In this document: positions 2,343 to 30,412 of the stretch, piece after piece | How positions within the stretch are numbered: position 1 is the first letter of the stretch | How the letters are laid out: each line of letters starts with the position of its first letter | Virus record (IMG/VR): IMGVR_UViG_3300013099_000057 | Coordinates: 1-31,011 of that record | Reading direction: 5' to 3' (one strand) | Length of the DNA: 31,011 nt | Source of the DNA: a virus | Program-made: the position numbers and the translations under genes | Notes under the pieces: generated by a model | What the model was told of the DNA's origin: nothing | What the model saw: only the letters and a program-made list of their open reading frames with translations | Databases searched by the model: none

Positions 2343-2644
2343 TGGAAGCCGGACAGGTTCTCCCAGGCATGTCCAAGCAGAAGATGAGGCAGGACTACGG
2401 TGGTTCGTTCTTTGACGACCTCGTGAAGAACGGTCCTTCCAGCTCTGAAATCAACTCCCTTGCTATTCGGTCGGAACTGAACCAGCGGGTCGGTGCCGTC
2501 GTCTTCGTCCAGAACCAGGAGGCTCGCACCGATATGCGCAAGACCATCAAGTACTGGATGAAGATTGGCGAACTTCACCACGACGTTCAGGTACTCCTCG
2601 ACTTCACGATGAGTCCTGGGCAGATAAAGATTGACCGTATCTGA
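2342..2644 (+). CDS. Hypothetical protein between terminase and portal (100 aa)
   Basis: I do not recognise this 100-residue protein. It starts at GTG 2342, which overlaps the terminase stop by 1 nt. A good ribosome-binding site, GGAGGT, lies at 2331-2336 inside the terminase end, 5 nt upstream. The product is soluble and mixed alpha/beta in appearance, with no signal peptide, membrane span or cysteines. Its middle has a hydrophobic strand-like run (GAVVFVQNQEA) followed by a helix (RKTIKYWMKIGELHHDVQ). Its stop overlaps the portal start by 1 nt (TGATG). Position alone suggests a packaging or portal-associated role, but that is only context. Coding status is well supported by the tight junctions on both sides. 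Confidence 0.8.
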   Translation: MEAGQVLPGMSKQKMRQDYGGSFFDDLVKNGPSSSEINSLAIRSELNQRVGAVVFVQNQEARTDMRKTIKYWMKIGELHHDVQVLLDFTMSPGQIKIDRI

Positions 2645-4443
2645 TGAAGGACACTGACTACGTTCTTGATAGGGTCCGCACCCTCAAGGGGATGAACCAA
2701 TCTTCTGACCGTGAGCGCATTCGCTCCGTGATGAACGGTGGGGCCGCTGGGGTCCAGGCCGTGCTCAACGGTGGGGTCCCAATGCAGGGTCCAGGCTCAG
2801 GCAAGGGTGCCGACAGCAACCTCGGTGTTGACCTCCCGACCGCCAACATCATGTACTCGGGCCTCGAGAGATTGGCCCAGCGCATCGGTCGTGCACCCAC
2901 CCTCAAGACCGACATGATTCCGACCCATGACTCCAACACCGCTCGGAGCAAGGCCGAGAAGCGTGCTCGCATCGTGCGGGGCTGGGACGAAACATCCCGC
3001 ATGGAGATGCAGTACCCACAGATTGGTAGGTGGCTCCCTGGATACGGCTTCACACTCCACGTTATTCGGGAGCGAAAGTTCGGGGACACCACCTACCCAG
3101 TTGCAGAGCTGCGTGACCCGTACGATGTCTACCCAGGCTCGTGGGGCGTAGACCAGCAGCCGTCCGAGGTGGCAGTCATCCGTGCGATGAGCCGTCACGA
3201 AATCGGCGTTGCGTACCCAGGCTTCCGAGAAATCGAGAAGGCCCGCCAACCCACAGAGTATGGGGTCCCCATCATCGGGGTTACTAGTAACTGGGAGGGG
3301 CGCAAGCATTCCCCCGTCGAGGTCTGCGAGTACATCTGCGAGGACGGCACCTACGTCGTTGCGCCGGAGTACAGCTACATGCTCGACTTCATCCCCAACC
3401 CGCTCATGTCGGGTCCTGCGTTCGTGATGACGAAGCGCTTCAGCTTCGATGAGCTTCAGGGTCAGTACCACCATGTCTTCGGACTGATGGCGATGATGGC
3501 GAAGATGAACATTCTTGGCCTCATCGGTACTGAGGATTCGACGTTCCGTGAAACCAACATCGTTGGCGAGATGGTTGGTGACGAGTACGAGAGGGGCCGC
3601 TTTGCCGTCAACCTGTTCGAGCACGGGACCGATATTGTCAAGCCAACCGGCGACCAGGTGCAGCAAACCTGGCAAGCCATCAACGTGCTGGAACGGCAGT
3701 TTCGCACTGTGGCTGGCTACGACGTTGCTCAGGACGGACAATCCCCGAATAGCTTCGCTACGGGTCAAGGAATCCGTGAGCTTGGTTCGAGTGCCGACCT
3801 CAATGTACGGGAGTACCAGACGGCCATCCGTCACTCCGTAGAACTCATCGACCGCAAGCGGCTCGAATGGGAAGAGGTGATGCACCCGAGCGAGCGCAAG
3901 AAGGTCTTCTGGTTCGAGGGTGGCAATCAGTTCGAGGAGAAGTACACCCCGAAGAAGGACATCAACAAGGACTACCGGACCCAGCGGGTCTACGGGGCCA
4001 TGGCGACCTTCGACGAGAACTCCAAGATTATCGCTGGCCTCCAGATGCTCCAGGCGAAGATTATCGACCGACGCACGATGCAGGAGAACATGGACGGACT
4101 GGACAACGTGTCGCTCATCAACGAGCGCATCGACCAGGACCAGGCCAAGGAAATGCTCATCATGAGCCTTGGCAACCGAGCAGCGCAGGGCGACCCCGCT
4201 GCTGACATGGCGCTCATCGAAATCATGGACGACCCATCCAACATCATCCCAACGCTCCAGAAGCTCTTCACGCCAGAGAAGCCGGAGCCGTCGCCTGAAG
4301 AGGCGATGATGATGGCCGGAGGTGGGATGCCAGGAGGACCGCCAGGAGCTGAGGTTGGTGGTGGACCGCCACCGGCAGTCCAGACTATTCTCGCTCAGAT
4401 GGAAGCACCAGGCGGCGGCGTACAATCCGTCGGACAAATGTAG
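2644..4443 (+). CDS. Portal protein
   Basis: The portal forms the dodecameric ring at one capsid vertex that docks the terminase and later the tail. The 599-aa product lies directly downstream of terminase. It has the portal-like N-terminal helix around residues 67-90 (IMYSGLERLAQRIGR), a long mixed clip/wing/stem region and a helical segment with TGQGIRELGSSADLNVREYQ near 370-390. It ends in a flexible Gly/Pro/Met-rich tail from about residue 550 (MMMAGGGMPGG and similar). Length and position fit siphovirus/podovirus portals. The start overlaps the upstream stop (TGATG) and has no clear ribosome-binding site, so translation is probably coupled. I assign it from context and general pattern, not from one diagnostic motif. 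Confidence 0.85.
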   Translation: MKDTDYVLDRVRTLKGMNQSSDRERIRSVMNGGAAGVQAVLNGGVPMQGPGSGKGADSNLGVDLPTANIMYSGLERLAQRIGRAPTLKTDMIPTHDSNTARSKAEKRARIVRGWDETSRMEMQYPQIGRWLPGYGFTLHVIRERKFGDTTYPVAELRDPYDVYPGSWGVDQQPSEVAVIRAMSRHEIGVAYPGFREIEKARQPTEYGVPIIGVTSNWEGRKHSPVEVCEYICEDGTYVVAPEYSYMLDFIPNPLMSGPAFVMTKRFSFDELQGQYHHVFGLMAMMAKMNILGLIGTEDSTFRETNIVGEMVGDEYERGRFAVNLFEHGTDIVKPTGDQVQQTWQAINVLERQFRTVAGYDVAQDGQSPNSFATGQGIRELGSSADLNVREYQTAIRHSVELIDRKRLEWEEVMHPSERKKVFWFEGGNQFEEKYTPKKDINKDYRTQRVYGAMATFDENSKIIAGLQMLQAKIIDRRTMQENMDGLDNVSLINERIDQDQAKEMLIMSLGNRAAQGDPAADMALIEIMDDPSNIIPTLQKLFTPEKPEPSPEEAMMMAGGGMPGGPPGAEVGGGPPPAVQTILAQMEAPGGGVQSVGQM

Positions 4444-5087: not shown

Positions 5088-5495
5088 ATGGCGCAGCCGA
5101 GAAACCCAGCAGCGGTCAGCGGGCCTGGGGCGCTGTCCCAACGAACTGACGGAGGAGCAGGAAGCTCCAAGCAGCCACTCCGAGTTCCTACAGGTGGGGC
5201 GTACGGAGAGGCCGGTGCCATGGAAGCCCAACAGAAGGGCGCTCCTATGGCAGCGGGAGGACCGGCACCTAGGGGAGCATCCCCCGCTGGTGCAGCAGGA
5301 CCTCCAGTAGAACCGGCTGGCGTATTCGGCCCGACCGAGAGGCCCGACCAGTCCATCATGGCTGGCGTGCCGCAGCAGTCCCCAATGGTGGAGGACCCGC
5401 AGGCGTTCCTGCGTGTGCTCGCAGCCAAGTACCCACACCCAGCGATTCAGCGGCTTGTTGATTGGTCAGCCGCAGGGAAGATGCCACCGAGATGA
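5088..5495 (+). CDS. Pro/Ala/Gly-rich phage structural-module protein (135 aa)
   Basis: The 135-aa product is low-complexity and probably disordered for its first 100 residues. It contains the segments LRVPTGGAYGEAGAMEAQQK and FGPTERPDQSIMAG. This pattern (RVPTGxAYG, then APM, then PTxRP and TAG/MAG) recurs in a conserved unknown protein of actinophage head modules; that recognition is from memory. The last 35 residues look helical (DPQAFLRVLAAKYPHPAIQRL). The start ATG 5088 lies 1 nt after the upstream stop with a purine-rich GAAAGAAGAAG before it. The stop overlaps the giant gene's ATG by 4 nt. Its role is unknown; a linker or assembly chaperone partner of the giant protein would fit the position. 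Confidence 0.75.
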   Translation: MAQPRNPAAVSGPGALSQRTDGGAGSSKQPLRVPTGGAYGEAGAMEAQQKGAPMAAGGPAPRGASPAGAAGPPVEPAGVFGPTERPDQSIMAGVPQQSPMVEDPQAFLRVLAAKYPHPAIQRLVDWSAAGKMPPR

Positions 5496-8400
5496 CAGCC
5501 TTCAGGACACAGGCACAGACGAACTTCCTCACCTATGCGAGGAACAGAGGGTTCAGGAATCAGGCGGCGTTCCATGCGCAGGCGACACCAGCCATTGCAC
5601 AGAACATGGTCAACTACGCCGAGCTGTACCCGAACAACTCCTCGACGCTGGGGCTTGCTTTGGCGACCGCTGGCGTGCCTGCGTCCGACCCGATGGTGGC
5701 AGATGTCGCCATGACCGAACTCAACAACCGTCAGGTGCTCGGCCCCATTGATGAGGCTGGCGGCGGGTGGTTCGACACCCTGGCCCGTGGTGTAGATGAG
5801 TTCCTCATCGACCCCATCAAGGGCACCGTCCGCTGGGGCATGATGGGCATGATGGCTCCGTACGAGATGACCATTGGCGGTACGGGAGTCCGTATGGCTG
5901 GTGGCGGCACATGGGAAGAGCAGCAGCCCTTCCTCACCCAGTCGCTCGGTGATGTCATGTCTGACCCAGGAGGCACCATCTCCTCACTGTGGAAGGAAGC
6001 GACCACCGCCGACGAGCAGCAAGCAGAGATGCACCGCTCGGGCGAACTCCAGTACACCTCCAACCAGGGTGGTGGCTGGTTCCCACAGTCCGAACTCGAC
6101 CCGACCGTGCAAGGCTCGGTCAACGAACAGATGGCTCAACTTGAGTCAGAGCTAAACCAGCTCGACATCTCCGAGAACGAGCGATACAAGCGCATGCTCG
6201 AAGCAGCGCCCGCCATGTGGGATACCGCATCGGCCACAGCTCTCCAGCGGGGACTCGGCTCTCCCATGACCCAGCAGGGTTACGCAGACCGTGAATCCAT
6301 TCTCTTCGCCGTCCCACAGCTCACGACCGGCGACAAGTTCTACACCCCGTACTCGCCTGGCCGGTTCGCCGCCGCCACGGTGTTCGAGCCAGGGACCACT
6401 TCATTCAACATCGCTTCCGGTATCGGTGACTTCGCATCGCAGGTCGTCCTCGACCCGATGAACTTCGCTGGTGCTGCGTGGGCCAAGGCTGGTGTCAGGG
6501 GCGCAACCGTCGCTGGCAAGCAGGCCAAGTTCACGAAGACGATGAACCAGATTCGTTCCGGTGCCATCAATGCCCCGTACAGCGATGTCGCCACTGGCGT
6601 TGCTCATGCCGGTGGCCCCGCCGCCAACTGGGGTGCCGACGCAGCGAAGCTCTCCATGCCTGGGCTTGAGGACGTAGGCAAGGTCGCCACCGATACGCCA
6701 CTCACGACGAAGCTCGGTCAGCCCGCCATCGTTCCGAACGTAGCTGAAGAGGCCATCCCTGTGGTGGACCAGGCCGACGAAGCGATGAACGTCATCGGCA
6801 GCGTCGTCCCTGGCTATGACTTCATGATGCCGTTCCAGGACGAGTCCGCTGCGATGATTGACAACCTCAAGATGCAGGTCGGTCCCGAAACAATGACGGG
6901 GCGCAGGCCCACTTCGGTAGAGGTGCCGCTGGTGTCTGGATTCAATCGTGGCTCCCTGCTCAGGGCCGAGGAGTACGTATTCACTGGAGGCCCACGGGGT
7001 TCCGAGGGTGTCTTCCGTTCCGGTGGACTCACGAACGACCCCATCCGTGCTCACCAGTACGCAACGGTCGCTGAGTCCAAGGAAGCTGGTAGCGGTGTCG
7101 TGTACGTCTACCGCAGGAGCGACCTGCCGGACAACATGCAAGAGATGATGGAGAAGGGCGACATCGAACAGTACGTCGCTCACGGTGAGGATGCCCTGTA
7201 CCAGGGTGAGGAGATTGGTCAGTCCGCTGGGTTCTACCGAGGGACCGAAGGCGAGTCCTTCGGGCACGTTGCCACTGTTGACGTAGCCGACTTCGGTCCG
7301 ATGGTCGATGCTGAGAAGCTGGCCTTCGACACCCTTCCCCCTTCAGCAACACCAGGACCCAAGGCTCTCCCCGTTGGTGGGCAGCGTGGTCTGCCCGCAC
7401 CTGCTGATGTCGCCATCCACATGGGTGCGCCGGAACCAGCAGCCAGAGCGAAGCCGTGGTGGTTGTCGCCGGAAGAATCTGCCAGGCGCATGCCTGGAGC
7501 CACTGACCCACCCGAGTGGGCAATCGAGGCGTACCGTCGTGCACACCAGGGCATCATCGACACCGAGGTAGTGACCTCAAGGGTCGGCGCTGGTCACTAC
7601 GTCATCGGTGGGCCAGAGGGTGGCGTGCAGAACTACGCCCTAAAGAAGGTCGGGAGCAAGTGGGCCATCTTCGACGATGCCGGTAACCCCGTCGAGGGTA
7701 TCGGTAGCGGATACCGCACGTTGACGGAGGCCGAGGCCCAGGCCAAGAAGCTGATGAAGTTTGAGGCCCGTGACCCGATGCTGGGTGGCGAGGCGATGGA
7801 TGATTTCGTAGAGCATTACGACGACCTCTGGATGGATGAGGGTGGGTCTATCCCGTTCTTCGCCAGTAGCCAGAACCCTGCGAGCCGCACGGATGGCGAC
7901 CTGCGTCACCTCATGGGCAGCAAGCCCAGGATGAACACCAAGGTTGAGAAGCCAGGTGAGAACAGTAACGCCATGGTGCGTGTCTTCGGGAAGACCATCG
8001 ACACCTCCAAGGGTGGCGGCGAGATACCGGAAGCTGCGAGGAACATCCTCAAGAGAGCTGGCAAGCTCGACAAGAACGGCTACAAGGGATTCGGTGACAA
8101 GCTGCTCGACAAGATTCCCGAGGAGCTGTACGAGTGGATGCGCAAGAACGGCTACGGCAAGATAAAGGTCGCCCAGGCTGACGGCACCAGCAAGGTCATC
8201 GTGCTCGACGACTTCGTGGGTGGCTCGTCCAAGGACCCGCTGGGCCGTGTGTGGTTCGATGATGGCAAGAAGCCGATTCAGGACCTCCCCATCGGACAGA
8301 AGGGGCCATCCCCCGACGACATGAACGGGTACCTCGACTGGATGTACGACCTGTCACGCTCGGCCATCGGTGCCGAGGACCCCATGACCGGAGCCAAGAT

Positions 8401-11400
8401 GGTCGGTGAGTTCGCTGGCAAGGACCCCGACATGGTGAAGCTCGCAGACATGATGGGGTACGAGGCCCGCTGGGATGCTCCTGGCTCGGCCATGCCTGGC
8501 ATGCGCTCGTCTGTCAACATGGACATGTTCACTGGTGAGCTGCTTGGCAAGAACGCCTCCAGGTTCGTCGATGAACTCGTGAAGGCAGCCGAGGAGGGTC
8601 CGGCGAGGGTTGACAAGATTCTCGACTACTTCTCCGGTCAGGGAATCCCCATTGACCTCGCCACACGCCGCCGCATCATCAATGCGAAGTCGTCAGATGC
8701 GATGACCCGTGCGCTGGCCCACTGGGTTGGCTCTGGTCCTGGCAAGGTGGTGCTGCCTCACTTCGGTATGGCGACGAGGTTCGGCAAGATGTCGGGTACT
8801 GGACTCGTGTCGAAGGTGACCTCACAGCCAGGCGTTGCCCGCCGCTTGTCCTCGATGCTTCCGACCAAGGAAGTGAACCTGGTCGAGGACCCCAGCCGTG
8901 CATACGAAACCCTCAACCGCATCCTCCCGAACTACGACGTTATCCGTGGGAGCGACGAGGCGGCAGAGGGAATCGAGTACGTCATCAAGGGCGAGAAGGT
9001 GACGACCCGCAAGATTGAGGACATCATGGACGACATGAGGCACCTCGAACCAGGGAACCGCACCCAGGCGTACAAGGTCATGGGTGACTACGCCGAGTAC
9101 ATCTTCGCAAAGGCCATGGACTCCTCTGGTGGTGACGCTGACCTCGCAAAGGCAGCGACCCGCTTCTGGGAGGAAGTTGGCTCCATGCACTCGTACGACG
9201 TTGGGCGCACCGGCATCACTGGTGTTGCCAGTGGACCTGGTGACTCAGCGAAGATATTCTCCAACGAAATCTTCTTCCCTGGTCCGCAGTACACCTCGCA
9301 GGCATGGTCCGGTGCGGTGGCATTCCCTGACCCGAAGACCGCTAAGAGGGTGATGAACAACTCAGACATCTTCGGGAAGACGGCGAACTTCCTCTCCTCG
9401 AAGACGGTCACGACAGAGGCGGGCAGGAAGCTCGTTGACAGGACTGGCTACCTGTGGGCGACCGGAGCAATGAACAACATCTGGAAGCCGCTCGTCCTCC
9501 TGCGTGGTGCATGGACATTCCGCATCATGCTCGATGACCAGATGCGTGTGGCCGCAGAGGGACTGGATTCGGTGTTCTCGAACCCAATGGCTCTCATTGG
9601 GTATGCGCTCTCCAGGACAGACGACTTCCGTTCTGCCTACGCCAAGGGCTTCGTTGACGTTCACGGTGTCAAGTTCGACATCAACGACATCGACGCACTG
9701 GCCCACGGTCACTTCTACAAGTCAGCCATGATGGAGCTTCCTGACGCATCGGTTGGTCCGATGGCGTTCGGGCACAAGCAGTGGGTGATGACCAAGAAGG
9801 GGCAGGCCGGATACAACGAAGGTCTGTCCACGAACCTCACACAGATGGCGGGCGACCCGCTGATGGTGCGTATGGCTGGGTCCAGCGCAGAGAACCGTGT
9901 CGATGATGCGGTGCAGTGGCTCCAGGGCAAGGGAGGCCCGCCTGGGTCCGTGCAGTCCGAGTTCGGTGTCAAGCAGCGCTTGGCTATGGCCGAGTTGTAT
10001 GTGAAGGACCCCGAGCTGTCGGCCAAGATTTCCCAGGGCGACCCGTACACGCTCAAGAAGCTGATGGAGCAGCAGGACGGGAACCTGCACCACGGTACCG
10101 GAGGCTTCGTGCTCGAAGACGACGGGTACGGGAACTGGCGCTACTTCGAGGACCGCAGTCAGGTCTACAACAACCCCGATGTCATCCCGAACCCCAAGCC
10201 GAAGAAGCCGATGGCTGACGGGACCATCGAGTCAACGCTCGTGGTCCATCAGCGTGGCGACGACGAGCTACTGGCTGTCATCAGTGACGGGCAGGGTCCG
10301 ATGAGCGGCCCGCTCCTCAACAAGAAGAAGGTCCGTGCCGACGACCCGACAGAGGTGGGAATCCCCACGACCGCTGGATACGACGAGTTCAAGACACTGG
10401 TCGGCAGCAAGGTCGAGGGTTCGGAGCTGTACCCGTCGAAGATGGGCACGCCGAACAGCGATGCCATCCCGAAGAGCGTTGGCCCCATCGACAAGGCAGA
10501 GCAGGTCAAGAACGGGTTCTTCTCGTTCTTCATGGGCAAGCCGTCCGACTGGCTCTCACGCTCCCCTGTCTTCAAGCAGGCGTACTGGCGCTCGATGGGC
10601 GAGCGGCTTCCGTTCATGGACGACGTAACTAGAGCTTCTGTACTGAAGCGTGCCCGTCAGGCCAACGTCGAGAAGGACATCCTGAAGATTGAGAGGGGTC
10701 AGACCAAGCTCTACGGCAGCATGTACGACGAGGTGGGTGGGCAAATCACTGACCTCGACCAGCTCGACGAGTACGGCAAGGCCGCTGGACTCGCCCAGGT
10801 GGAGGCAACGCTGTTCGACCTCTCGAACAAGAAGAACATCAGCGACTCGCTGAACCTCATCATGCCGTTCGCTGAGGCGTGGGGTGAGTTCATCTCCCGC
10901 TGGTCGAGGCTCATGGTGACCGGCGACAGGAATGTGCAGAACGTAAACCGGCTGCGTCAGGGCGTGAACGGACTCAGGCAGTCCGACCCGTTCGACATGG
11001 ACGGGAACCAGGGCTTCTTTCACGAGAACGACTTCGGCCAAGAGGTGTTCTCGTATCCCGCCTTCCTCACGAAGGGGACGATGGCGGTCCACAACGTCAT
11101 GAACAACCTGCCGGTCATGAACAAGATGCTCGGCCCCGACGTTGACCCGTCGATGGCCGACAACATTGATGTGACCGCATCGGTCGAGTCCCTGAACTTC
11201 GCTGCCGGTGTCATCCCTGGATTCGGGCCTGTCTTCCAGACCGCTGCAAAGGCAGTACTCCCGATGGACGACCCGTCATGGGACTGGGTGAGCAACATCG
11301 TCATGCCGTTCGGTACGGCAGGCGGCGCTGGTGCCTCCCTACTCCCTGCATGGGCGAAGCGCATGGCATCGGCCCACGGCTCCGACGACCCCGCACTCCA

Positions 11401-12478
11401 GGCGACCTACACCTCCACGGTGCAGGATGTCATGCGGACCATGATGAACGATGGTGAGTTCGCTGGCTTCAGCACTGGTGAGGAGTTCAACGCCAAGGCA
11501 GCCGAGGCCGAGGAGCGTGCCAAGGCACTGCTCATGGTGCGTGCTGCGTCTACGTTCTGGATGCCCAGCTCCCCGTCCTACACCTTCCAGAAGGAAGACA
11601 AGAATGGGTTGCTCCACTCGTACTCCTCGCTCGGCCAGGCGTATCGGGAAATCCTGTACGGCGAGGCCCAGGCGAACGACACGATGGCCTTCGACATCTT
11701 CTTGGAGCGGTACGGGTATCTCCCGACCGCATTCACAGACCCACGCTCCTACGTCATTGAGCCACACTCTCTGACAAAGGAGGGCGGGGTATTCGAGCGC
11801 AACAACATGGAGCTGTTCGAGAGGTACCCAGGCACGGCGATGTTCATTGACCCGAATGTGGGCATGCCGATAGAGGAAGCAACCTACGACCATGCTGCGT
11901 ACATCGGGCAACTCGCCCGCTCGGAGCGTGAGCAGTGGACCGCAGAGCAGATGAGCTACCTGGCTGACGACCAGCTCGGTGACATCTGGTGGGACCACGC
12001 AAACGAACTCGTTGCGAAGATGGAGCCTGCGGTGCGTGACGCTTCGCTCGCTCAGACACGCATGGAGATTCAGGCGGCACACCCGCTCTGGAACCAGCCG
12101 ATACCTGGCAAGTCGCAGGGCATCACGAACCAGCAACAGATGGCAGAAGTCAATCGCTGGATGGGGGACCCGTCAGTGACTGGCACACCGATAGCCAAGG
12201 CGACCGCCGAGTACCTGAACCTCCGCAGTCAGATACTCGCCGCAAACGAGAAGTACCTTGGGTCCACAACCATCAGTGGTTCGGAAGGTGACATCGCAGT
12301 CTACGGGCGTAAGGCACTCCGTGACCTGGCCGGTCAGCTTGAGGGTTTGTACCCCGAGTTCGGTCCATTGTGGCGCAACGTCTACGCCTCCGAGGTGTCG
12401 ATGGACCACGATGGGTACGACAAGGCTGAGTTTGAGCTGTACGGTGACAACATATTCGCAGAGACATTGGGAGTTTGA
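5492..12478 (+). CDS. Giant virion protein, probable internal/ejected protein (2328 aa)
   Basis: At 2328 residues this is by far the largest product here. It lies between portal and the wall-degrading proteins. It has a helical N-terminus, Gly/Trp-rich segments, a possible ADP-ribosyltransferase-like stretch (about 470-600) and a small beta module (about 685-760: YALKKVGSKWAIFDDAGNP then TLTEAEAQAKKL). Long helical regions follow. Amphipathic or hydrophobic stretches lie near 310-345, 1320-1350 (NNIWKPLVLLRGAWTFRIML) and 1895-1960. I see no lysozyme or transglycosylase motif. ATG 5492 overlaps the upstream stop (ATGA); the frame is open back to 5462 but would run further into the preceding gene. 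Large size, absence of tape-measure character and absence of other tail-tube genes suggest an internal protein that forms a DNA-ejection conduit. The coding call is secure; the role is inference. Confidence 0.85.
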   Translation: MTAFRTQAQTNFLTYARNRGFRNQAAFHAQATPAIAQNMVNYAELYPNNSSTLGLALATAGVPASDPMVADVAMTELNNRQVLGPIDEAGGGWFDTLARGVDEFLIDPIKGTVRWGMMGMMAPYEMTIGGTGVRMAGGGTWEEQQPFLTQSLGDVMSDPGGTISSLWKEATTADEQQAEMHRSGELQYTSNQGGGWFPQSELDPTVQGSVNEQMAQLESELNQLDISENERYKRMLEAAPAMWDTASATALQRGLGSPMTQQGYADRESILFAVPQLTTGDKFYTPYSPGRFAAATVFEPGTTSFNIASGIGDFASQVVLDPMNFAGAAWAKAGVRGATVAGKQAKFTKTMNQIRSGAINAPYSDVATGVAHAGGPAANWGADAAKLSMPGLEDVGKVATDTPLTTKLGQPAIVPNVAEEAIPVVDQADEAMNVIGSVVPGYDFMMPFQDESAAMIDNLKMQVGPETMTGRRPTSVEVPLVSGFNRGSLLRAEEYVFTGGPRGSEGVFRSGGLTNDPIRAHQYATVAESKEAGSGVVYVYRRSDLPDNMQEMMEKGDIEQYVAHGEDALYQGEEIGQSAGFYRGTEGESFGHVATVDVADFGPMVDAEKLAFDTLPPSATPGPKALPVGGQRGLPAPADVAIHMGAPEPAARAKPWWLSPEESARRMPGATDPPEWAIEAYRRAHQGIIDTEVVTSRVGAGHYVIGGPEGGVQNYALKKVGSKWAIFDDAGNPVEGIGSGYRTLTEAEAQAKKLMKFEARDPMLGGEAMDDFVEHYDDLWMDEGGSIPFFASSQNPASRTDGDLRHLMGSKPRMNTKVEKPGENSNAMVRVFGKTIDTSKGGGEIPEAARNILKRAGKLDKNGYKGFGDKLLDKIPEELYEWMRKNGYGKIKVAQADGTSKVIVLDDFVGGSSKDPLGRVWFDDGKKPIQDLPIGQKGPSPDDMNGYLDWMYDLSRSAIGAEDPMTGAKMVGEFAGKDPDMVKLADMMGYEARWDAPGSAMPGMRSSVNMDMFTGELLGKNASRFVDELVKAAEEGPARVDKILDYFSGQGIPIDLATRRRIINAKSSDAMTRALAHWVGSGPGKVVLPHFGMATRFGKMSGTGLVSKVTSQPGVARRLSSMLPTKEVNLVEDPSRAYETLNRILPNYDVIRGSDEAAEGIEYVIKGEKVTTRKIEDIMDDMRHLEPGNRTQAYKVMGDYAEYIFAKAMDSSGGDADLAKAATRFWEEVGSMHSYDVGRTGITGVASGPGDSAKIFSNEIFFPGPQYTSQAWSGAVAFPDPKTAKRVMNNSDIFGKTANFLSSKTVTTEAGRKLVDRTGYLWATGAMNNIWKPLVLLRGAWTFRIMLDDQMRVAAEGLDSVFSNPMALIGYALSRTDDFRSAYAKGFVDVHGVKFDINDIDALAHGHFYKSAMMELPDASVGPMAFGHKQWVMTKKGQAGYNEGLSTNLTQMAGDPLMVRMAGSSAENRVDDAVQWLQGKGGPPGSVQSEFGVKQRLAMAELYVKDPELSAKISQGDPYTLKKLMEQQDGNLHHGTGGFVLEDDGYGNWRYFEDRSQVYNNPDVIPNPKPKKPMADGTIESTLVVHQRGDDELLAVISDGQGPMSGPLLNKKKVRADDPTEVGIPTTAGYDEFKTLVGSKVEGSELYPSKMGTPNSDAIPKSVGPIDKAEQVKNGFFSFFMGKPSDWLSRSPVFKQAYWRSMGERLPFMDDVTRASVLKRARQANVEKDILKIERGQTKLYGSMYDEVGGQITDLDQLDEYGKAAGLAQVEATLFDLSNKKNISDSLNLIMPFAEAWGEFISRWSRLMVTGDRNVQNVNRLRQGVNGLRQSDPFDMDGNQGFFHENDFGQEVFSYPAFLTKGTMAVHNVMNNLPVMNKMLGPDVDPSMADNIDVTASVESLNFAAGVIPGFGPVFQTAAKAVLPMDDPSWDWVSNIVMPFGTAGGAGASLLPAWAKRMASAHGSDDPALQATYTSTVQDVMRTMMNDGEFAGFSTGEEFNAKAAEAEERAKALLMVRAASTFWMPSSPSYTFQKEDKNGLLHSYSSLGQAYREILYGEAQANDTMAFDIFLERYGYLPTAFTDPRSYVIEPHSLTKEGGVFERNNMELFERYPGTAMFIDPNVGMPIEEATYDHAAYIGQLARSEREQWTAEQMSYLADDQLGDIWWDHANELVAKMEPAVRDASLAQTRMEIQAAHPLWNQPIPGKSQGITNQQQMAEVNRWMGDPSVTGTPIAKATAEYLNLRSQILAANEKYLGSTTISGSEGDIAVYGRKALRDLAGQLEGLYPEFGPLWRNVYASEVSMDHDGYDKAEFELYGDNIFAETLGV

Positions 12479-14249: not shown

Positions 14250-15041
14250 ATGGCTAACTGGATATTCCCCGTCGTAGGAGCGACCGAGTGGAGCGGCGGC
14301 TCGTGGATGCCGTACCAACAGAACCACCGTGGTCGCACCCATGCGGCTGTAGACATCTATGCGTCGAAGGGTTCACCCATCATCGCATCGGTGTCTGGCA
14401 CGGTGAAGAACTTCGGCACCGGCAACATCGGTGGGAACTGGATTCAGGTCCAGGGCAGTGACGGCAACGTGTACTACTACGCCCACATGAACTCGGCCAC
14501 GAAACTCAAGAAGGGTGCGAAGGTTGTACCTGGCACCACGCTCGGGTCCGTCGGCAACACTGGGTCTGCAAAGACGACCAAGCCACACGTTCACTTCTCC
14601 GTGAAGCGCAACGGCAAGGCCATCAGCCCCGTGGACATGCTTCGTGGTGGACTCGTGATGCCCAACGTCGGCAAGGCGCAGGGTGACGATGACATGACGA
14701 GGCCAGGCAGTACGAACGAGGACGGGACGACTGACCCGTACGCAGAGCTGAGAAAACAGGGGTTGCCAGACAGCGAGCCTGGTGACTACGACTCAGCCCC
14801 TCCCCCCTGGATTGCTCAGCTCGAAGAGTATCGAATGACGCTCGGCCAGCAACAGCAGCAACCGCAGCCCGTCAAGGAGCGTGCCCGTGCTCGCCTTCAC
14901 AAGACACTCATGGGAATGAGCGACATGGTGAGGTCGCAAGGGTTCGACACTGGCGCTGGCATGCCCGACACCGGCATCGAGGGAGTGGACGACGATACAG
15001 GACTAGCAGATGTCGGAAGAGAAGGGGTGGCCCGTGCTTAG
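14250..15041 (+). CDS. M23-family peptidoglycan endopeptidase (virion-associated)
   Basis: This 263-aa protein has a complete LytM/M23 metallopeptidase domain over residues about 1-135. The zinc ligands are H31 and D35 (RTHAAVDIYA) and H115, with H113 in PHVHFSV; a further active-site histidine, H79, lies in YYYAHM. Such enzymes cut peptide cross-bridges of peptidoglycan. The remaining 125 residues are acidic, Gln-rich (QQQQQPQP) and probably a flexible linker that ends in a helical segment. There is no signal peptide. The start ATG 14250 lies 3 nt after the upstream stop with GAGG just before it. Because it is embedded among virion genes, far from the endolysin, it is more likely a particle-borne enzyme that opens the wall during entry than a lysis enzyme. 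Confidence 0.9.
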   Translation: MANWIFPVVGATEWSGGSWMPYQQNHRGRTHAAVDIYASKGSPIIASVSGTVKNFGTGNIGGNWIQVQGSDGNVYYYAHMNSATKLKKGAKVVPGTTLGSVGNTGSAKTTKPHVHFSVKRNGKAISPVDMLRGGLVMPNVGKAQGDDDMTRPGSTNEDGTTDPYAELRKQGLPDSEPGDYDSAPPPWIAQLEEYRMTLGQQQQQPQPVKERARARLHKTLMGMSDMVRSQGFDTGAGMPDTGIEGVDDDTGLADVGREGVARA

Positions 15042-16452
15042 AAGAGGTTCGAGCGGAGATGAGGTAAAGGCGCTCCAAGAGAAGCTGAACGCCAGCGGTG
15101 CTGGTATCAGCGTCGATGGTGTCTTCGGTCCCGCAACAGAGGCAGCCCTTCGTGCGTACCAGGAGTCCCACGACCTCACGGTTGATGGCATCGCTGGTCC
15201 GAACACGTTGGGCGCACTGGCTGGCAACACCCCAGTAGTGGGCACCACCACGACATCCGACCCTGGTAACCCAGCCGACGATGCTCGTGGCTCTGAGCTG
15301 ATTGCGCCTGGCGAAGCTCGCCTCTGGCTGAACTCCGACACTGGCGAGTACTGGATTGTCTACACGGTCCCGCCCGTCACACTGGAGGACGGCACCGCTT
15401 CAGGTGAGTCCTACTACTCGTGGCGCATCGAGTCGGACGAAGACCTGGAGGCACTGGTTGGCCCCGACAAGACAGCCACCCCCGCATTCACTGGCACCAA
15501 CGCAGATTTCCAGACCCGTGGTGTTGTTGACTTGGGAAGGTTCTCTGAAGTCATCATCATGGACATGGAGGACGACCCCTTCGACACCTGGGCAGATGAC
15601 TACGCACGGGTGGCTGAGTTCGCACCATGGAAGCTCGACGATGACTGGGTAGAGCGTGCCGTCGAAATCATGTTCGAGCGTGAGGACGGCATCATGCGTC
15701 CCGAGGACCTGTGGGGCACACAGTGGTGGAAGGACCACAATCCGCAGGAACGGCTCTGGATGGAGACATTCGAGTCCGACCCCGCCGCTGCCCAACAGCA
15801 GATTGACGACAACCGAGACAACATGAGGGTGCAGCTCGCCAACGCTGGCATCGACAACGCATCGGAGGCGCTGGTCAACTGGATGTCCGACCGGACCACC
15901 ATGGGCACCTGGTCCATCACGAAGCTGACATCACAGGTCAAGGCGCTCTCTGACCCAGGCTCCGTGGACACCATTGATGATGAGCTGTTCCAGTTTCTAG
16001 CAAACAACGACATGGAGCTGGACACCACCCGCAAGGGTGAGGACACGGTGCGCAACTTGCTCAGCACTTGGCTCGGCCCGACGTTCGGTGACTGGTCGGA
16101 GACTGACATCGCCGCCAAGGCATCTCAGCTCCGCAACAACCCTGACGGCGAGATTGAGTTCGTGGAGTTCCTGAAGGACCAGCGCATGGCGATGTTCCCT
16201 GCCTACTCCGACAGGAACATCACCTACACCGCAGCGATGCAGCCATGGAAGACCTACGCCCAGTCGATGTGGGGTGTGCCGGTGGACGAGACAGACGAGA
16301 AGTTCCAAGAGATTGTGCAGATGAACGACCCAGTTGAGGCATCCAAGATGGCCCGCTCTATCGGGTTCGAGCGGGGCTACGACAAGGTTGTGAACGAGAT
16401 GACCGCAGGCATTGGGTCAGGAATGAACAAGAACGTGCGAGGTGCGGTCTGA
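15010..16452 (+). CDS. Peptidoglycan-binding-domain virion protein (480 aa)
   Basis: Residues about 7-70 form a PG_binding_1 domain: PVLRRGSSGDEVKALQEKL, then DGVFGPATEAALRAYQ and DGIAGPNTLGAL, the usual three-helix cell-wall-binding repeat. The remaining 400 residues hold no recognised domain. They are acidic, with alternating beta (about 95-150) and helical segments. The ATG start at 15010 overlaps the M23 gene by 32 nt. An alternative GTG at 15034, behind GAAGAGAAGGGG, would shorten the overlap to 8 nt but trims the domain edge (GWP). The product probably anchors the neighbouring M23 enzyme or the ejection complex on the wall; no catalytic residues are visible. The stop overlaps the next ATG (TGATG). 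Confidence 0.85.
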   Translation: MSEEKGWPVLRRGSSGDEVKALQEKLNASGAGISVDGVFGPATEAALRAYQESHDLTVDGIAGPNTLGALAGNTPVVGTTTTSDPGNPADDARGSELIAPGEARLWLNSDTGEYWIVYTVPPVTLEDGTASGESYYSWRIESDEDLEALVGPDKTATPAFTGTNADFQTRGVVDLGRFSEVIIMDMEDDPFDTWADDYARVAEFAPWKLDDDWVERAVEIMFEREDGIMRPEDLWGTQWWKDHNPQERLWMETFESDPAAAQQQIDDNRDNMRVQLANAGIDNASEALVNWMSDRTTMGTWSITKLTSQVKALSDPGSVDTIDDELFQFLANNDMELDTTRKGEDTVRNLLSTWLGPTFGDWSETDIAAKASQLRNNPDGEIEFVEFLKDQRMAMFPAYSDRNITYTAAMQPWKTYAQSMWGVPVDETDEKFQEIVQMNDPVEASKMARSIGFERGYDKVVNEMTAGIGSGMNKNVRGAV

Positions 16453-19237: not shown

Positions 19238-19630
19238 ATGGCCGACTTCACCGACCACGGGGCGCTTGAATCGCTCCAATGGATTCTCGCTCAGGCATCG
19301 CCTGTCGCCCCTGTAGAGCTGTACGTTCAGCTTCACGTTGGTGACCCTGGTGCTGACGGCCTTGGCAATCCTGCTGCGAACACAGAGCGCATGCTCATCT
19401 CGTTCGGAGCTGCTGCAAACGCCAACACTGACGGTCGTGCGCAGGCATCATCCGATGCCAACGTGTCGTGGCCTTCCGTGCCTGCCGACGAGACCTATTC
19501 ACATATCTCGATTTGGGATGCGGTCACTGCTGGTAACGCCTGGTACAAGGATGCGATGCTCGCTCCGGTTCCGGTCACCACTGGTGGTGCGTTCGTGTTC
19601 CCCATCGGGCAGACTATCGACCACGTTTAG
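19238..19630 (+). CDS. Virion structural protein with LHVGDPG motif (130 aa)
   Basis: The 130-residue beta-rich product contains LYVQLHVGDPGADGLGNPA near residues 28-46, then an Asn/Ala-rich strand region, a tryptophan (NVSWPSV) and SHISIWDAVTAGNAWYKDAM. The LHxGDPG ... NPA ... H-x-x-I/L-W-D pattern is common in small phage proteins annotated as minor tail, head-fibre or decoration proteins; that is recalled, not searched. ATG 19238 has AAAGGA a few bases upstream. It is the first gene after the capsid hairpin. A decoration or head-tail attachment protein is a reasonable guess from position, but the evidence does not choose between them. Confidence 0.75.
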   Translation: MADFTDHGALESLQWILAQASPVAPVELYVQLHVGDPGADGLGNPAANTERMLISFGAAANANTDGRAQASSDANVSWPSVPADETYSHISIWDAVTAGNAWYKDAMLAPVPVTTGGAFVFPIGQTIDHV

Positions 19631-19633
19631 CCC

Positions 19634-20872
19634 ATGCTTCTCGGCCCTGGTGCTGGGACGGGTGACACAGGCATCTGGAAAGTAGGTGTCTGGGTCGAAG
19701 CTACCGTCTACGAAGGAGCCTTCGCTACCACAGCGGAGGCTCTCTTCGGGATGTCTGGCATCCTCATGCTCGAAGGCAACTTCGCAGTAGACGGTGATGC
19801 CGAGACAGCATTCGCTGGTGGCATCCAGTACGAGGGCGAGTTCGCTGCCGAGGCAGAGGCAACGCTCGACTTCATGTCCCTGGGATTCTCCTGGGGCGTG
19901 TTCCAACTAGACGGTGAGGCCACCACCACGTTCGCTGCCGCTGCGAGCGGTAACGGTGCGTTCGCCATCGTCGGTGAGGCCGAGTATCACTCGGTCCACT
20001 TCCAGTTCATGTACGGGCTGATGCAGATTCAGGCCGACGCTCAGATGCGCTGGTGGAGGGGCCGCTTCAACGCACCTGGCGCATTCGCCATGACTGCGGA
20101 GGCATCCGGTTCGTTCCACGCATCCGAGTTCCCTTGGGGTGTGTTCGCTGTCAAGGCTGACGGCCAGATGCGATGGTGGCGTGGCGAGTTCGTGCCTGCC
20201 GGTGAGTTCGCACTTCAGGCTGACGGTGGCGTGTTCTTCCACTACCACAGCCTTGGTCACGGCACGTTTCATGGCGAGGCAGATGCTGACACGAGGCTCA
20301 TCGGCATCGGTGGCGTTGAGGGTGCCTTCGCCCTTCGTGGCGAGGCGAGCCTCGTGACCCTTGGGTTCGACAGGGACCTGGGCTACTACGCAGTCGAGGC
20401 CACCGCCGACATCTCGTTCGGTGGGCATGTCCAGTATGTGGGTGGGCTTGTTCCGATGGTGGCTGAGGGCAACGTGCGCTCGTTCGGCATCAAGGGCAGG
20501 CACTACCAGTGGTTCCATGCTGAGGCTGAGGCTGAGGTTGAGGGTTTCGAGGGTGAGTACACACCGCCCGACCAGTACGGCGCATTCGCTGTCGCTGGCA
20601 TCGCAACCCTCCGCATGTTCTGGTCGCCGGACATCTCACCAGGCACAGGCCAGGTGTGTGCGCCGGAAGACCCAGCAGATGCAGCAGGGCAGCCCGACCC
20701 AGCAGATGCAGGCTGCCAGCCGGAGCCATCGGAGGCCACTGCCGGAGGAACGCCTGACGGGGACTTCATGGGTGGCGTTCCCTCAGCGACAGACGACATA
20801 GAAGCAGCCGAAGCAATCGTTGAAGACGATGCGCCCGAGGCTAACGTAGACACCGGAAAGAAGGTTTGCTAA
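19634..20872 (+). CDS. Protein of about fourteen phased 20-residue beta repeats with an acidic tail (412 aa)
   Basis: Residues about 28-330 consist of tandem repeats with consensus G-x-F-A-x-x-(A/G)-(E/D)-A and an aromatic near position 10. The aromatic or hydrophobic anchor of the GxF motif falls at residues 30, 50, 70, 90, 110, 130, 151, 171, 192, 212, 232, 252, 272, 294 and 318, so spacing is almost always exactly 20. Two units share QMRWWRG. The last 80 residues are acidic, Pro/Asp/Ala-rich and probably disordered, ending in GKKVC. A 20-residue period fits a beta-solenoid or repeated beta-hairpin structure. No signal peptide or enzyme motif is seen. ATG 19634 lies 3 nt after the upstream stop without a clear ribosome-binding site, so coupling is likely. 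A virion surface or tail-associated role is inferred from its neighbours. Confidence 0.82.
   Translation: MLLGPGAGTGDTGIWKVGVWVEATVYEGAFATTAEALFGMSGILMLEGNFAVDGDAETAFAGGIQYEGEFAAEAEATLDFMSLGFSWGVFQLDGEATTTFAAAASGNGAFAIVGEAEYHSVHFQFMYGLMQIQADAQMRWWRGRFNAPGAFAMTAEASGSFHASEFPWGVFAVKADGQMRWWRGEFVPAGEFALQADGGVFFHYHSLGHGTFHGEADADTRLIGIGGVEGAFALRGEASLVTLGFDRDLGYYAVEATADISFGGHVQYVGGLVPMVAEGNVRSFGIKGRHYQWFHAEAEAEVEGFEGEYTPPDQYGAFAVAGIATLRMFWSPDISPGTGQVCAPEDPADAAGQPDPADAGCQPEPSEATAGGTPDGDFMGGVPSATDDIEAAEAIVEDDAPEANVDTGKKVC
19715..20623 (+). repeat. Protein-level tandem repeat array with about 60-nt period
   Basis: This marks the coding stretch for the GxFA repeats. Most units are exactly 60 nt; two are 63, one 66 and one 72. 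The DNA of the units has diverged widely, so the array is old and probably kept by structural selection. The exception is a pair of two-unit blocks around residues 134-155 and 175-196 that still share QMRWWRG. Confidence 0.7.
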
Positions 20873-21804
20873 TGGCCCGCTCGTATCTGAAGAACGCCGT
20901 CGATGTGGCTCTGGCTGAGGATGTGGGTGGCGCTGACTCGACCATCACCGTGTCCACGCCTGAGCTACTGCCCGAGGTGCCGTTCTACCTCGTCGTTGAC
21001 CCGTTCTCGAACTCGCTGCGTGAGTACATGTACTGCACGGGCGTGGTCGATGAGGTGCTGTCGGTTGACCGTAACCTCGACGGCTCGGAAGGCACCTCCC
21101 ACCTCTCCGGCGACATCGTGCGTATCACCTACATGTCGCAGCACCTCGACGACCTGTGGGATGGCATCGCTGACGTACCGCAGCAGACCTACCTTCACGA
21201 AGACCTCACCGACATTGCCCCCGACCAGCACCACGAGAGGTTCACGGAAGAGGAGGGTCACGCTATCGGTATCGTGGCTCCCCCGAACCCCGAGATTGGC
21301 ACGGTGTGGGTGAACCCCAACGAGCCACCGGAGGCCGAGTACCTGCCGCTCACTGGTGGTGTCATGGAAGGTCTTATCGCCATGGACAACCATCGCATCG
21401 AGGGGTTGCAGGACCCCATCTACCCAGGCGATGCGGTGAGCAAGAGCTACCTGGAGGACAACTCTGGCGGCGGTCAGGGCGACTGGTACCCCATAACGCT
21501 TGAAAGCGGTTGGGAGTGGTTTGGTGGCGGCTGGGCCTCACCCCGCTACCGACTGAACGACAACGGCACTGTCGATATCCAGGGGATGGTTAGTGGCGGG
21601 GAGGTTACCTCCAGCACACCCGTCTTCTACTTGCCAGCCAACATGATTCCGAACTGGGACCTTGTGGTTGTCAGCTATGCGTCCACCGGCCCGTGCCGTA
21701 TCAATGTTCGTGGCTCAACGTACGCAACCCCAGGGATGGTCCAGACAGAAGCTGGTTGGTCTCAGACCTGGACTGCCATGAACATTTCGTTCGGACTCGG
21801 ATAG
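20872..21804 (+). CDS. Tail fibre-like protein with attachment domain and LPLTGG repeat (310 aa)
   Basis: The first 80 residues form a beta domain (STITVSTPELLPEVPFYLVV, LREYMYCTG, then VDRNLDGSEGTSHLSGD) that also opens the fibre gene at 26726 and part of the adaptor-like gene at 23649. A helix naming distance to a partner (LDDLWDGIADVPQQTYLHED) comes next. The fibre motif YLPLTGGVMEGLIAMDNHRI follows, and then DAVSKSYLED, both frequent in phage fibre proteins. The C-terminal 110 residues are a Trp/Gly-rich beta domain, perhaps a receptor-binding head. I chose ATG 20872, which overlaps the previous stop (TAATG), over TTG 20866. GAAGG lies 10 nt upstream. Confidence 0.82.
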   Translation: MARSYLKNAVDVALAEDVGGADSTITVSTPELLPEVPFYLVVDPFSNSLREYMYCTGVVDEVLSVDRNLDGSEGTSHLSGDIVRITYMSQHLDDLWDGIADVPQQTYLHEDLTDIAPDQHHERFTEEEGHAIGIVAPPNPEIGTVWVNPNEPPEAEYLPLTGGVMEGLIAMDNHRIEGLQDPIYPGDAVSKSYLEDNSGGGQGDWYPITLESGWEWFGGGWASPRYRLNDNGTVDIQGMVSGGEVTSSTPVFYLPANMIPNWDLVVVSYASTGPCRINVRGSTYATPGMVQTEAGWSQTWTAMNISFGLG

Positions 21805-21813
21805 GAGACACGC

Positions 21814-22293
21814 ATGGCACGTTCACAAATATGGGATGGCTCCGAATGGGTGTCCATGACCGGAGGCGCAGGCGAGGACAGTGGCGGTGGGGAACCCACT
21901 GACGACTACCTCTTGCTCGACGGCTCGAACAACAACCCGTCGCCGTTCAACTACCTGCGTCCCATCGACGCAGACGAGCTGTACCTGTCGCTGGGTGGCG
22001 GCACACTGACGGGCATCCTGAGCCTTGACCTCAATCAGACGGCTGGCACGCTCAGTATCGTTGAGTGGTTCGGCGGCACATCGTTCAACGACACCAGTGG
22101 CTCGAAGTACCTGTCGTTCGGCGGCACCGACCCGTCAGCGTTGCTCTCCCTCTGGCCCTCACGGGCCACGTTCAACACGAGGGCTGTGTGTGTCGTGGAC
22201 AACGACCCGAACGGTCGCTCGTTTCGCAACATCACCATCGGCAACCAACCTACGTCGCAGAACCTTGGCGACATTTGGGCAACGGTGGTCTGA
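21814..22293 (+). CDS. Short tail fibre-like protein (159 aa)
   Basis: The N-terminus MARSQIWDGSEWVSMTGG has one W-D-G-x-x-W unit, as found in small tail proteins. A Gly-rich linker and YLSLGGGTLTGILSLDLNQT follow, a diverged copy of the LPLTGG fibre repeat of the preceding gene. The remaining 80 residues are beta-rich (EWFGGTSFNDTSGSKYLSFG). It starts at ATG 21814 with GGAG at 21804-21807, 9 nt after the upstream stop. The shared motifs with the flanking genes suggest a family of short fibres that expanded by duplication. Function at the tail tip or capsid surface is inferred. Confidence 0.78.
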   Translation: MARSQIWDGSEWVSMTGGAGEDSGGGEPTDDYLLLDGSNNNPSPFNYLRPIDADELYLSLGGGTLTGILSLDLNQTAGTLSIVEWFGGTSFNDTSGSKYLSFGGTDPSALLSLWPSRATFNTRAVCVVDNDPNGRSFRNITIGNQPTSQNLGDIWATVV

Positions 22294-22974
22294 ATGGCGA
22301 TGCGGTACTGGAACGGGGGAGCGTGGGAGGAGATAGGGAACTTCCGGTACTGGAACGGTGGTGCCTGGCAGGAGCTTGACACCATCTACGAATGGAACGG
22401 TTCTTCGTGGGTGCAGGTGTGGCCCGAGTCCACGCCGGAGGAGACATTCACCTACTACGCCAACTGGACACAGAGCTATGACGGCAACGTGGCGAACTAC
22501 TCGTCGTACCGTGATGTCATGTCGTATGAGGGGTACTCGTCCTACCACGGCAACGAGTCGGCGCTGTTCGGATTCGATGACGCACTGATGCGCTCCGACC
22601 TGGCTGGCCGTGACATCAAGTCAGTGGACCTGCGCCTCTCACAGCGCTGGTCGTACGCAGGCTCCGGCAAGACCTTCCACATTCAGGCCCACAACCACTC
22701 ATCGAAGCCAGGGTCGTACACGCCAGGGCCGCAGATAGCTGAGGTGTTCCTTGGTCGTGGTCAGATTGGCTCAATCACCTTGCCCAACTCGCTCGGTGAG
22801 CAGATTCGTGACGGGAGTGAGCGTGGCGTTGGGCTGCTCTACGTTGATTCCAACTGGGGTTACTGCGCCGGTATGTCCACCACCACCGTGCTGTCGTCAA
22901 GCCCCGAGTCGTACCAGGTTGTTCCGTCAGGGACGGACCAGTTGCCACGGTTGACTATCAAGGCGGGTGGATGA
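22294..22974 (+). CDS. Tail protein with WNG repeats and beta-sandwich-like end (226 aa)
   Basis: Three tandem W-N-G-x-x-W units open the protein: RYWNGGAWEEIG, FRYWNGGAWQELD and IYEWNGSSWVQVW. The first two are encoded by a 14-nt exact direct repeat (CGGTACTGGAACGG at 22303-22316 and 22345-22358). The rest is a Tyr/Ser-rich beta domain containing SALFGFDDALMRSDLAGRDI and VDLRLSQRWSYAGSG, and ending LPRLTIKAGG. This is reminiscent of jelly-roll sugar-binding modules in phage tails. The start ATG follows the previous stop directly, with no clear ribosome-binding site. A host-binding role is plausible but unproven. Confidence 0.78.
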   Translation: MAMRYWNGGAWEEIGNFRYWNGGAWQELDTIYEWNGSSWVQVWPESTPEETFTYYANWTQSYDGNVANYSSYRDVMSYEGYSSYHGNESALFGFDDALMRSDLAGRDIKSVDLRLSQRWSYAGSGKTFHIQAHNHSSKPGSYTPGPQIAEVFLGRGQIGSITLPNSLGEQIRDGSERGVGLLYVDSNWGYCAGMSTTTVLSSSPESYQVVPSGTDQLPRLTIKAGG

Positions 22975-29866: not shown

Positions 29867-30017
29867 CCTTGCCGCTCCTTGCTGGTGATGGATGGGTGTC
29901 CATCTCGTGGTCCCTCAGAGGATAGCCGCAAAGCTCGCACTTCAGCAACCCCCTCCCTCTCGGGTAGCCGCCACCCATCATGCGCTTCTTGCGAGCGCCT
30001 AGTTTCTTCGCTGTCAT
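29859..30017 (-). CDS. Small zinc-finger protein (52 aa)
   Basis: The 52-residue product has a basic N-terminus (KKLGARKKRMMGGGYPRGRG) and a single zinc-finger-like motif C27-x2-C30-x6-H37-x4-H42 (CELCGYPLRDHEMDTH). The frame is open to 30050, but ATG 30017 is chosen. It overlaps the HNH gene stop by 4 nt (ATGA) and has GAGGAGCAAGG upstream. A DNA- or RNA-binding role is plausible from the basic tail plus zinc site. It could act with the adjacent HNH nuclease or regulate the operon; neither is shown. Confidence 0.65.
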   Translation of the reverse strand: MTAKKLGARKKRMMGGGYPRGRGLLKCELCGYPLRDHEMDTHPSPARSGKDD

Positions 30018-30412
30018 TCCTTGCTCCTCTCTTTGACGCAGGTCCGGCAATGCCGACGACCGGAGTACCTATACGCATCCTCTAGTGAGTGGCCTCGCTT
30101 GCAGTGGGTTTGGTTCTTACGCTTTCCGGCGAAGCCGAACCCACGCAATGCGTTCTCCCTTACCGTCACCATCTCTAGGTGGTCGGGGTTGACACACCCT
30201 GGATTGCGGCATAGGTGGTCGGTAACCAACCCTTCAGGGATGGGGCTGACGAGAGCTTCGTACACCTGTCGGTGGATAAGACCATCAGCGTTATGCCCGT
30301 AACCGGCGCTGTTCTTACCACCTGTCCAGTGCCAGCAATCACCAACCTCAATCTGTTCTGCGATTGATGGTTGGTGTCCCCACCTACCCCTCGGTGCGAA
30401 GAGGTCAATCAT
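30014..30412 (-). CDS. HNH endonuclease (132 aa)
   Basis: The 132-aa product is a typical phage HNH nuclease. It opens with CWHWTGGKNSAGYG, then the tyrosine-containing helix HRQVYEAL. The catalytic core is TDHLCRNPGCVNPDHLEMVT (residues 64-83), with D65-H66, the zinc or structural cysteines C68 and C73, N75 and H78. A second zinc cluster, C104/H108 and C122/C125, closes the protein. It overlaps the nuclease gene upstream (ATGA) and the zinc-finger gene downstream by 4 nt each. HNH proteins of this kind can be homing enzymes, or nickases that assist terminase. Here it lies among nucleic-acid genes upstream of the lysis genes. No intron is evident nearby. Confidence 0.9.
   Translation of the reverse strand: MIDLFAPRGRWGHQPSIAEQIEVGDCWHWTGGKNSAGYGHNADGLIHRQVYEALVSPIPEGLVTDHLCRNPGCVNPDHLEMVTVRENALRGFGFAGKRKNQTHCKRGHSLEDAYRYSGRRHCRTCVKERSKE

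Follow-up and report, generated by a model that had tools for sequence, protein, structure and literature searches.

A tandem 20-residue repeat protein beside a gp80-type gene is the probable string of a beads-on-a-string phage fibre

In fibre I of the Ralstonia podophage GP4, five gp80 dimers are reportedly joined by an elongated 'rope' protein, as described in a 2023 paper on this phage. GP4 chain 8JOU_g has been described as a dimeric fibril joining an adhesin to a collar (PMC13243795). In Sf14, the neck whiskers (gp30/gp31, PDB 9C39) are threaded by a single gp30 chain (PMC11821841). These whiskers likewise contain a gp80-fold dimer, but the assembly is short. In the Sf14-related SeKF_13, the gene adjacent to the bead is also short (164 aa) and lies upstream, while the bead is followed by a protease and not by a repeat protein. 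Bead chains of dimers are further known from A511 (gp105) and from the garlands of Milano and 7-7-1. Each gp105-type dimer of A511 is traversed by an extended chain, 'like beads on a string', and for the Milano garland the string is reported as unknown (PMC10811340). However, these chains belong to a baseplate network. Finally, Anabaena phage A-1(L) has five bead-chain neck fibres of about 100 nm (PMC10966104). These consist of gp82, gp81 and gp80 trimers, the number shared with GP4 gp80 being a coincidence of naming. With trimeric beads and no rope, A-1(L) was set aside as a direct relative.

Here, we describe a locus in which a gene of the GP4 bead family is directly followed by a gene for a tandem repeat protein. 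The window, i.e. the whole stretch of DNA analysed, comprises 31,011 nucleotides of an IMG/VR virus record (IMGVR_UViG_3300013099_000057), and the features of the locus are listed in the table. The order of the genes is major capsid (SU10 family), bead and string. The bead belongs to PF23140, titled 'Podophage GP4 fiber I protein gp80', and its assignment is based on profile, PDB sequence and fold alike. AlphaFold2 predicts it confidently (pLDDT about 95), and the model matches 9c39_K, the Sf14 neck chain, at Z 11 and 8jou_a at Z 10, with a weaker fold match to A511 gp105 and the 7-7-1 garland protein (Z about 7). In PHROGs, as in many mycobacteriophage records, genes of the gp80 family carry the label 'head protein'.

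Features of the bead and string locus in the window
Feature	Position	Strand	Evidence
Bead: gp80-family protein, 130 aa	19238..19630	+	PF23140 E 9e-23; PHROG 240; 8JOU chain a E 4.4e-7
Probable string (rope) protein	19634..20872	+	412 aa; tandem 20-residue repeat z 5.5-6.5; syntenic homologue in L002
Putative N-terminal anchor motif GPGAGTGDTGIWKVGVW, residues 1-27	19634..19714	+	common to L002 homologue
Fifteen repeat units, residues 28-335	19715..20638	+	unit table; autocorrelation
Acidic C-terminal tail, residues 336-412, Cys 342, 361, 412	20639..20872	+	
Downstream fibre-like protein, candidate adhesin or fibre partner	20872..21804	+	PHROG 5339 (virion structural protein, E 6e-6); PHROG 38058 (tail fibre, E 0.005)

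The junction of bead and string genes reads TAG CCC ATG (19628-19636), so that the string starts in the same frame three bases past the stop of the bead, and the stop of the string overlaps the start of the next gene (TAATG). Given these two junctions, the three genes are probably co-translated. In L025-L036 and L075-L120, bead and string are often in one frame with one or two stop codons between them, an arrangement which would allow read-through or re-initiation. The position of the fibre-like gene next to the string suggests that its product is a partner of the fibre.

Several other genes of the window are worth recording. Past the fibre-like gene, at 21814-22974, two genes start with W-x-G-x-x-W motifs (WDGSEW; YWNGGAW twice, EWNGSSW) of weak similarity to DUF2510, perhaps a shared attachment tag. 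A 2,338-aa protein (5462-12478), encoded between the capsid gene and the portal region, matches nothing in Pfam or PHROGs and could be an internal or ejection protein. Two overlapping genes at 14250-16452, likewise upstream of the capsid gene, encode a Peptidase_M23 protein and a protein with a peptidoglycan-binding domain; both are likely virion-associated cell-wall proteins. An HNH endonuclease (HNH_3) is located on the minus strand at the right end of the window (30014-30412).

The reading frame of the string is open throughout. Its units follow the pattern G-x-F-A-x-x-A/G-E/D-A-x-x-x-F and start at residues 28, 48, 68, 88, 108, 128, 149, 169, 190, 210, 230, 250, 270, 292 and 316. The spacing is exactly 20 residues in 10/14 steps; in order, five steps of 20 are followed by 21, 20, 21, four of 20, 22 and 24. 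Units were counted from anchored motifs, as a free unit-fitting script over-extends into the tails. In a BLOSUM62 autocorrelation of residues 26-330, z reaches 6.5 at lag 40 and 5.5 at lag 20, while the highest value in 500 shuffles at any lag from 5 to 69 was 4.1. At the DNA level there is no tandem repeat, thus the repeats are old and maintained at the protein level. The tail comprises 77 residues, among them 18 D/E and two K/R, and a cysteine is the last residue of the protein. The N-terminal motif may serve as an anchor. Sequence searches with the string gave no match in INPHARED, IMG/VR, Pfam or PDB; a weak match to PHROG 25953 (E 0.089) was dropped. A preliminary description of this DNA, made from the letters alone, had already noted a tandem repeat with exact 20-residue spacing in most steps, a long acidic tail ending in Cys and no recognisable family, all of which hold; its estimate of about fourteen units becomes fifteen with anchored counting.

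A syntenic homologue was found in a relative, the phage locus L002. Here, a 373-aa protein in the same position contains twelve near-perfect units of 20 residues, each made up of GxFxLxAxADVxFAG and a polar linker. It is far more regular than the window string, with z = 17 at lag 20. The two proteins are 30% identical over 264 aa, and the match scores 81 bits compared with at most 24 bits for 150 shuffled versions. The N-terminal motif GIGNAPVGLWLLGV is common to both, as are three tail cysteines.

Could the repeats fold on their own? The preliminary description had proposed a solenoid. Under this explanation about 15 coils of the repeat region would stack into a rod, either a beta-solenoid or a beta-helix, and form a fibre shaft which the bead merely caps or joins. 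AlphaFold2 was run on bead and string as one chain, with TAG read as Q, for the window and for the relative L093; in the first run one L002 row of the alignment was misplaced. A beta-helix is indeed drawn over the window repeats, with Z about 14 to the P22 tailspike, and the near-constant length of the units would suit the coils of a solenoid. However, the confidence is low, with pLDDT about 45-73 in these repeats and 30-43 in the string part of L093, and we regard the model as unreliable. Moreover, steps of 22 and 24 residues are present, and many related strings are rich in Gly/Ser/Thr with few large hydrophobic residues. A similarly poor beta-helix in a string-like region was suspected to be a hallucination by the authors who described LSH1 (PMC13243795). 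A self-standing solenoid is therefore not supported, and we consider it unlikely. In the same read-through models, each with one copy of the bead, no string segment was confidently placed beside the bead.

The pairing of bead and string recurs in other phages. Loci with a gp80-type gene were gathered from IMG/VR and INPHARED, and redundancy was removed for a test of the next gene. A strong period of 20 or 21 residues is present in the gene directly after the bead in 25/57 non-redundant loci but in only 8/296 other plus-strand genes of the same loci (odds ratio 28, p = 5e-16). Among these eight control positives are several strings of bead loci, located two or three genes farther along. Within 4 kb downstream, a lag-20/21 protein occurs in 21/39 bead clusters, an undercount as greedy gene calling missed some strings (L015, L019), compared with 0/34 upstream. 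Among loci of GP4/Bcep22-like podophages, the next gene has z > 3 in 29/31, a figure obtained at a lax threshold from a set not reduced for redundancy, in which the ORF in L157/L158 looks to be in the wrong frame. The strings of these GP4-like loci have a different conserved start, ALNxxPINGW. A lag-20 signal is also seen in cluster L mycobacteriophages, where it lies in a minor tail protein encoded after the bead (Rumpelstiltskin gp23). A scan of actinobacterial prophages added few clear cases. In BcepIL02, bead and string are each annotated as virion-associated, and in JC1 virion proteomics lists the bead (gp53) and not the string (gp54) (PMC9144972). In L106, a few genes after the bead, an aromatic-rich repeat of about 20 residues of another kind is present (SxFG...GYGxAxLPA; 9963-10384).

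These counts also bear on a second explanation, in which the protein has nothing to do with the bead: short beta segments would repeat to form the shaft of a trimeric tail fibre, and the gene order would only reflect that tail genes usually cluster. Phage fibres often have repetitive shafts, the neighbours in the window are fibre-like genes, and about half of the bead genes are not directly followed by a gene for a 20-residue-repeat protein. However, clustering alone would not explain an association which is specific to the position after the bead, nor a period of 20 or 21 residues in groups which otherwise lack sequence similarity; such a shaft is in our judgement quite improbable. It should be noted that the string groups are linked by period and context, not by sequence. 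Pairwise BLAST between strings of different phage groups stays at noise, and a 20-column HMM built from the L002 units gave no score on other strings. Common descent is thus not established, and the shared period could be convergent.

The preliminary description had also considered a capsid-surface protein. The gene order capsid, bead, string could point to such a protein or to a decoration protein, and both PHROG 240 and PHROG 19041 (the latter including the neighbour of the GP4 bead, see below) are filed under head and packaging. However, the partner gene belongs to the family of the GP4 fibre I bead and not to a decoration protein, the solved member of this family is part of a tail-vertex fibre according to the title of 8JOU, and the cluster L pair lies at a distance from the capsid gene, amid genes for minor tail proteins. 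We give this explanation very little credence.

A length-setting role, also raised in the preliminary description, is plausible and gains support from phages with near-identical beads. The beads of L075 and L077 are 100% identical, while the strings are 452 and 412 aa long. The same is seen for L040/L043 (beads 97% identical; strings 318/278 aa), L025/L030 (93%; 237/257 aa), L111/L126 (91%; 255/175 aa, with two 40-residue gaps) and L026/L027 (87%; 273/294 aa). The differences of 20, 21, 40 and 80 residues correspond to whole units. Not all pairs follow this; the strings of L039/L043, for instance, differ by 17. Whole-unit differences are expected of a unit-counting string, but simple gain and loss of repeats fits too, so the variation supports a ruler role without proving it.

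The gene beside the GP4 bead itself is of the same type. The bead encoded in L137 (61,129 bp) is 100% identical to 8JOU chain a across all 140 residues, hence L137 is GP4 or a very close relative. The gene directly after it (2206-3183) encodes a 325-aa protein with period 20 (z about 5) and about 11 units, counted by eye. It belongs to PHROG 19041, a 'virion structural protein' family which also includes BcepIL02 gp56 and DC1 gp54. The members share with the window string the position after the bead and the 20-residue period; however, the N- and C-terminal motifs differ, the window string does not match the PHROG 19041 profile, and no sequence similarity was detected between the L137 string with its 11 or so units and that of the window with 15. 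When the strings were searched in the PDB, including this one, no chain matched. We infer that this gene makes the GP4 rope. As 8JOU contains 10 gp80 chains, about 11 units suggest approximately one unit per bead subunit, a numerical hint and not a proof.

A prediction set beforehand concerned LSH1, whose adhesin-like gp34 has a poorly predicted, beta-helix-like domain left unexplained by the authors and whose neighbouring gp35 resembles 8JOU_g (PMC13243795). We predicted that this domain is a 20-residue repeat and tested it in the related Alishewanella phage Slicko01. Here, a 1,843-aa protein (L225:5570-11101) was taken as the gp34 relative because it has two copies of a domain, as in PMC13243795. 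The prediction held, with z = 12 at lag 20 for residues 1051-1500. Much of the C-terminal half of this adhesin-like protein consists of 20-residue repeats, which indicates that strings can be fused to adhesin domains. A bead-like gene two genes away matches PHROG 240 (E 1.7e-9), while its PF23140 score of 18 bits is under the curated cut-off of 27.

Taken together, the gp80 family of the bead, the recurrent pairing, the whole-unit variation and the string-type gene beside the GP4 bead lead us to suggest that the window protein is probably the string (rope) of a beads-on-a-string virion side fibre, with the gp80-type protein encoded upstream as its bead and the number of units setting its length. 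The upstream protein would form dimers as in GP4. Each 20-residue unit would be a mostly extended beta segment docking on a bead subunit, with its variable end as the linker to the next unit; most likely one bead subunit (or dimer) would be held per unit by strand addition. The unit count would then fix the number of strung beads and hence the fibre length, which for a fully extended chain would be at most about 100 nm (15 x 20 x 3.3 Angstrom). Such a fibre may attach at the head-tail collar and carry a receptor-binding protein at its far end. As to the direction of the string, the adhesin-like domain precedes the repeats in some relatives (Slicko01), while others have short conserved motifs at both ends. 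The binding of string to bead, its stoichiometry and the position of the fibre are deduced from this comparison. The preliminary description had spoken of a new type of phage fibre; a fibre component it probably is, but 'new type' is too strong, as bead-and-rope fibres are known in GP4. What appears to be new is the sequence identity and the breadth of the rope.

More broadly, we see about an even chance that podo-, sipho- and myophages contain a widespread and so far unrecognised class of such 'ruler-strings', tandem 20-residue proteins which thread gp80-type bead dimers in a fixed register, with one unit per subunit, and set length by gain or loss of whole units. If so, this would account for the GP4 rope without a PDB sequence, for the poorly predicted C-terminus of LSH1 gp34 and, possibly, for the string of Milano-type garlands. 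Bead-chain side fibres are seen repeatedly in cryo-EM of phages, but the string of GP4 has had no sequence on deposit and that of the Milano garland no identity. If our reading is right, the string would be recognisable from sequence alone, by a 20-residue period beside a gp80-type gene. Many repeat proteins annotated as 'minor tail' or 'hypothetical' would then gain a function, the label 'head protein', carried by several hundred mycobacteriophage relatives of gp80, would become suspect, and the length of the fibre would become countable.
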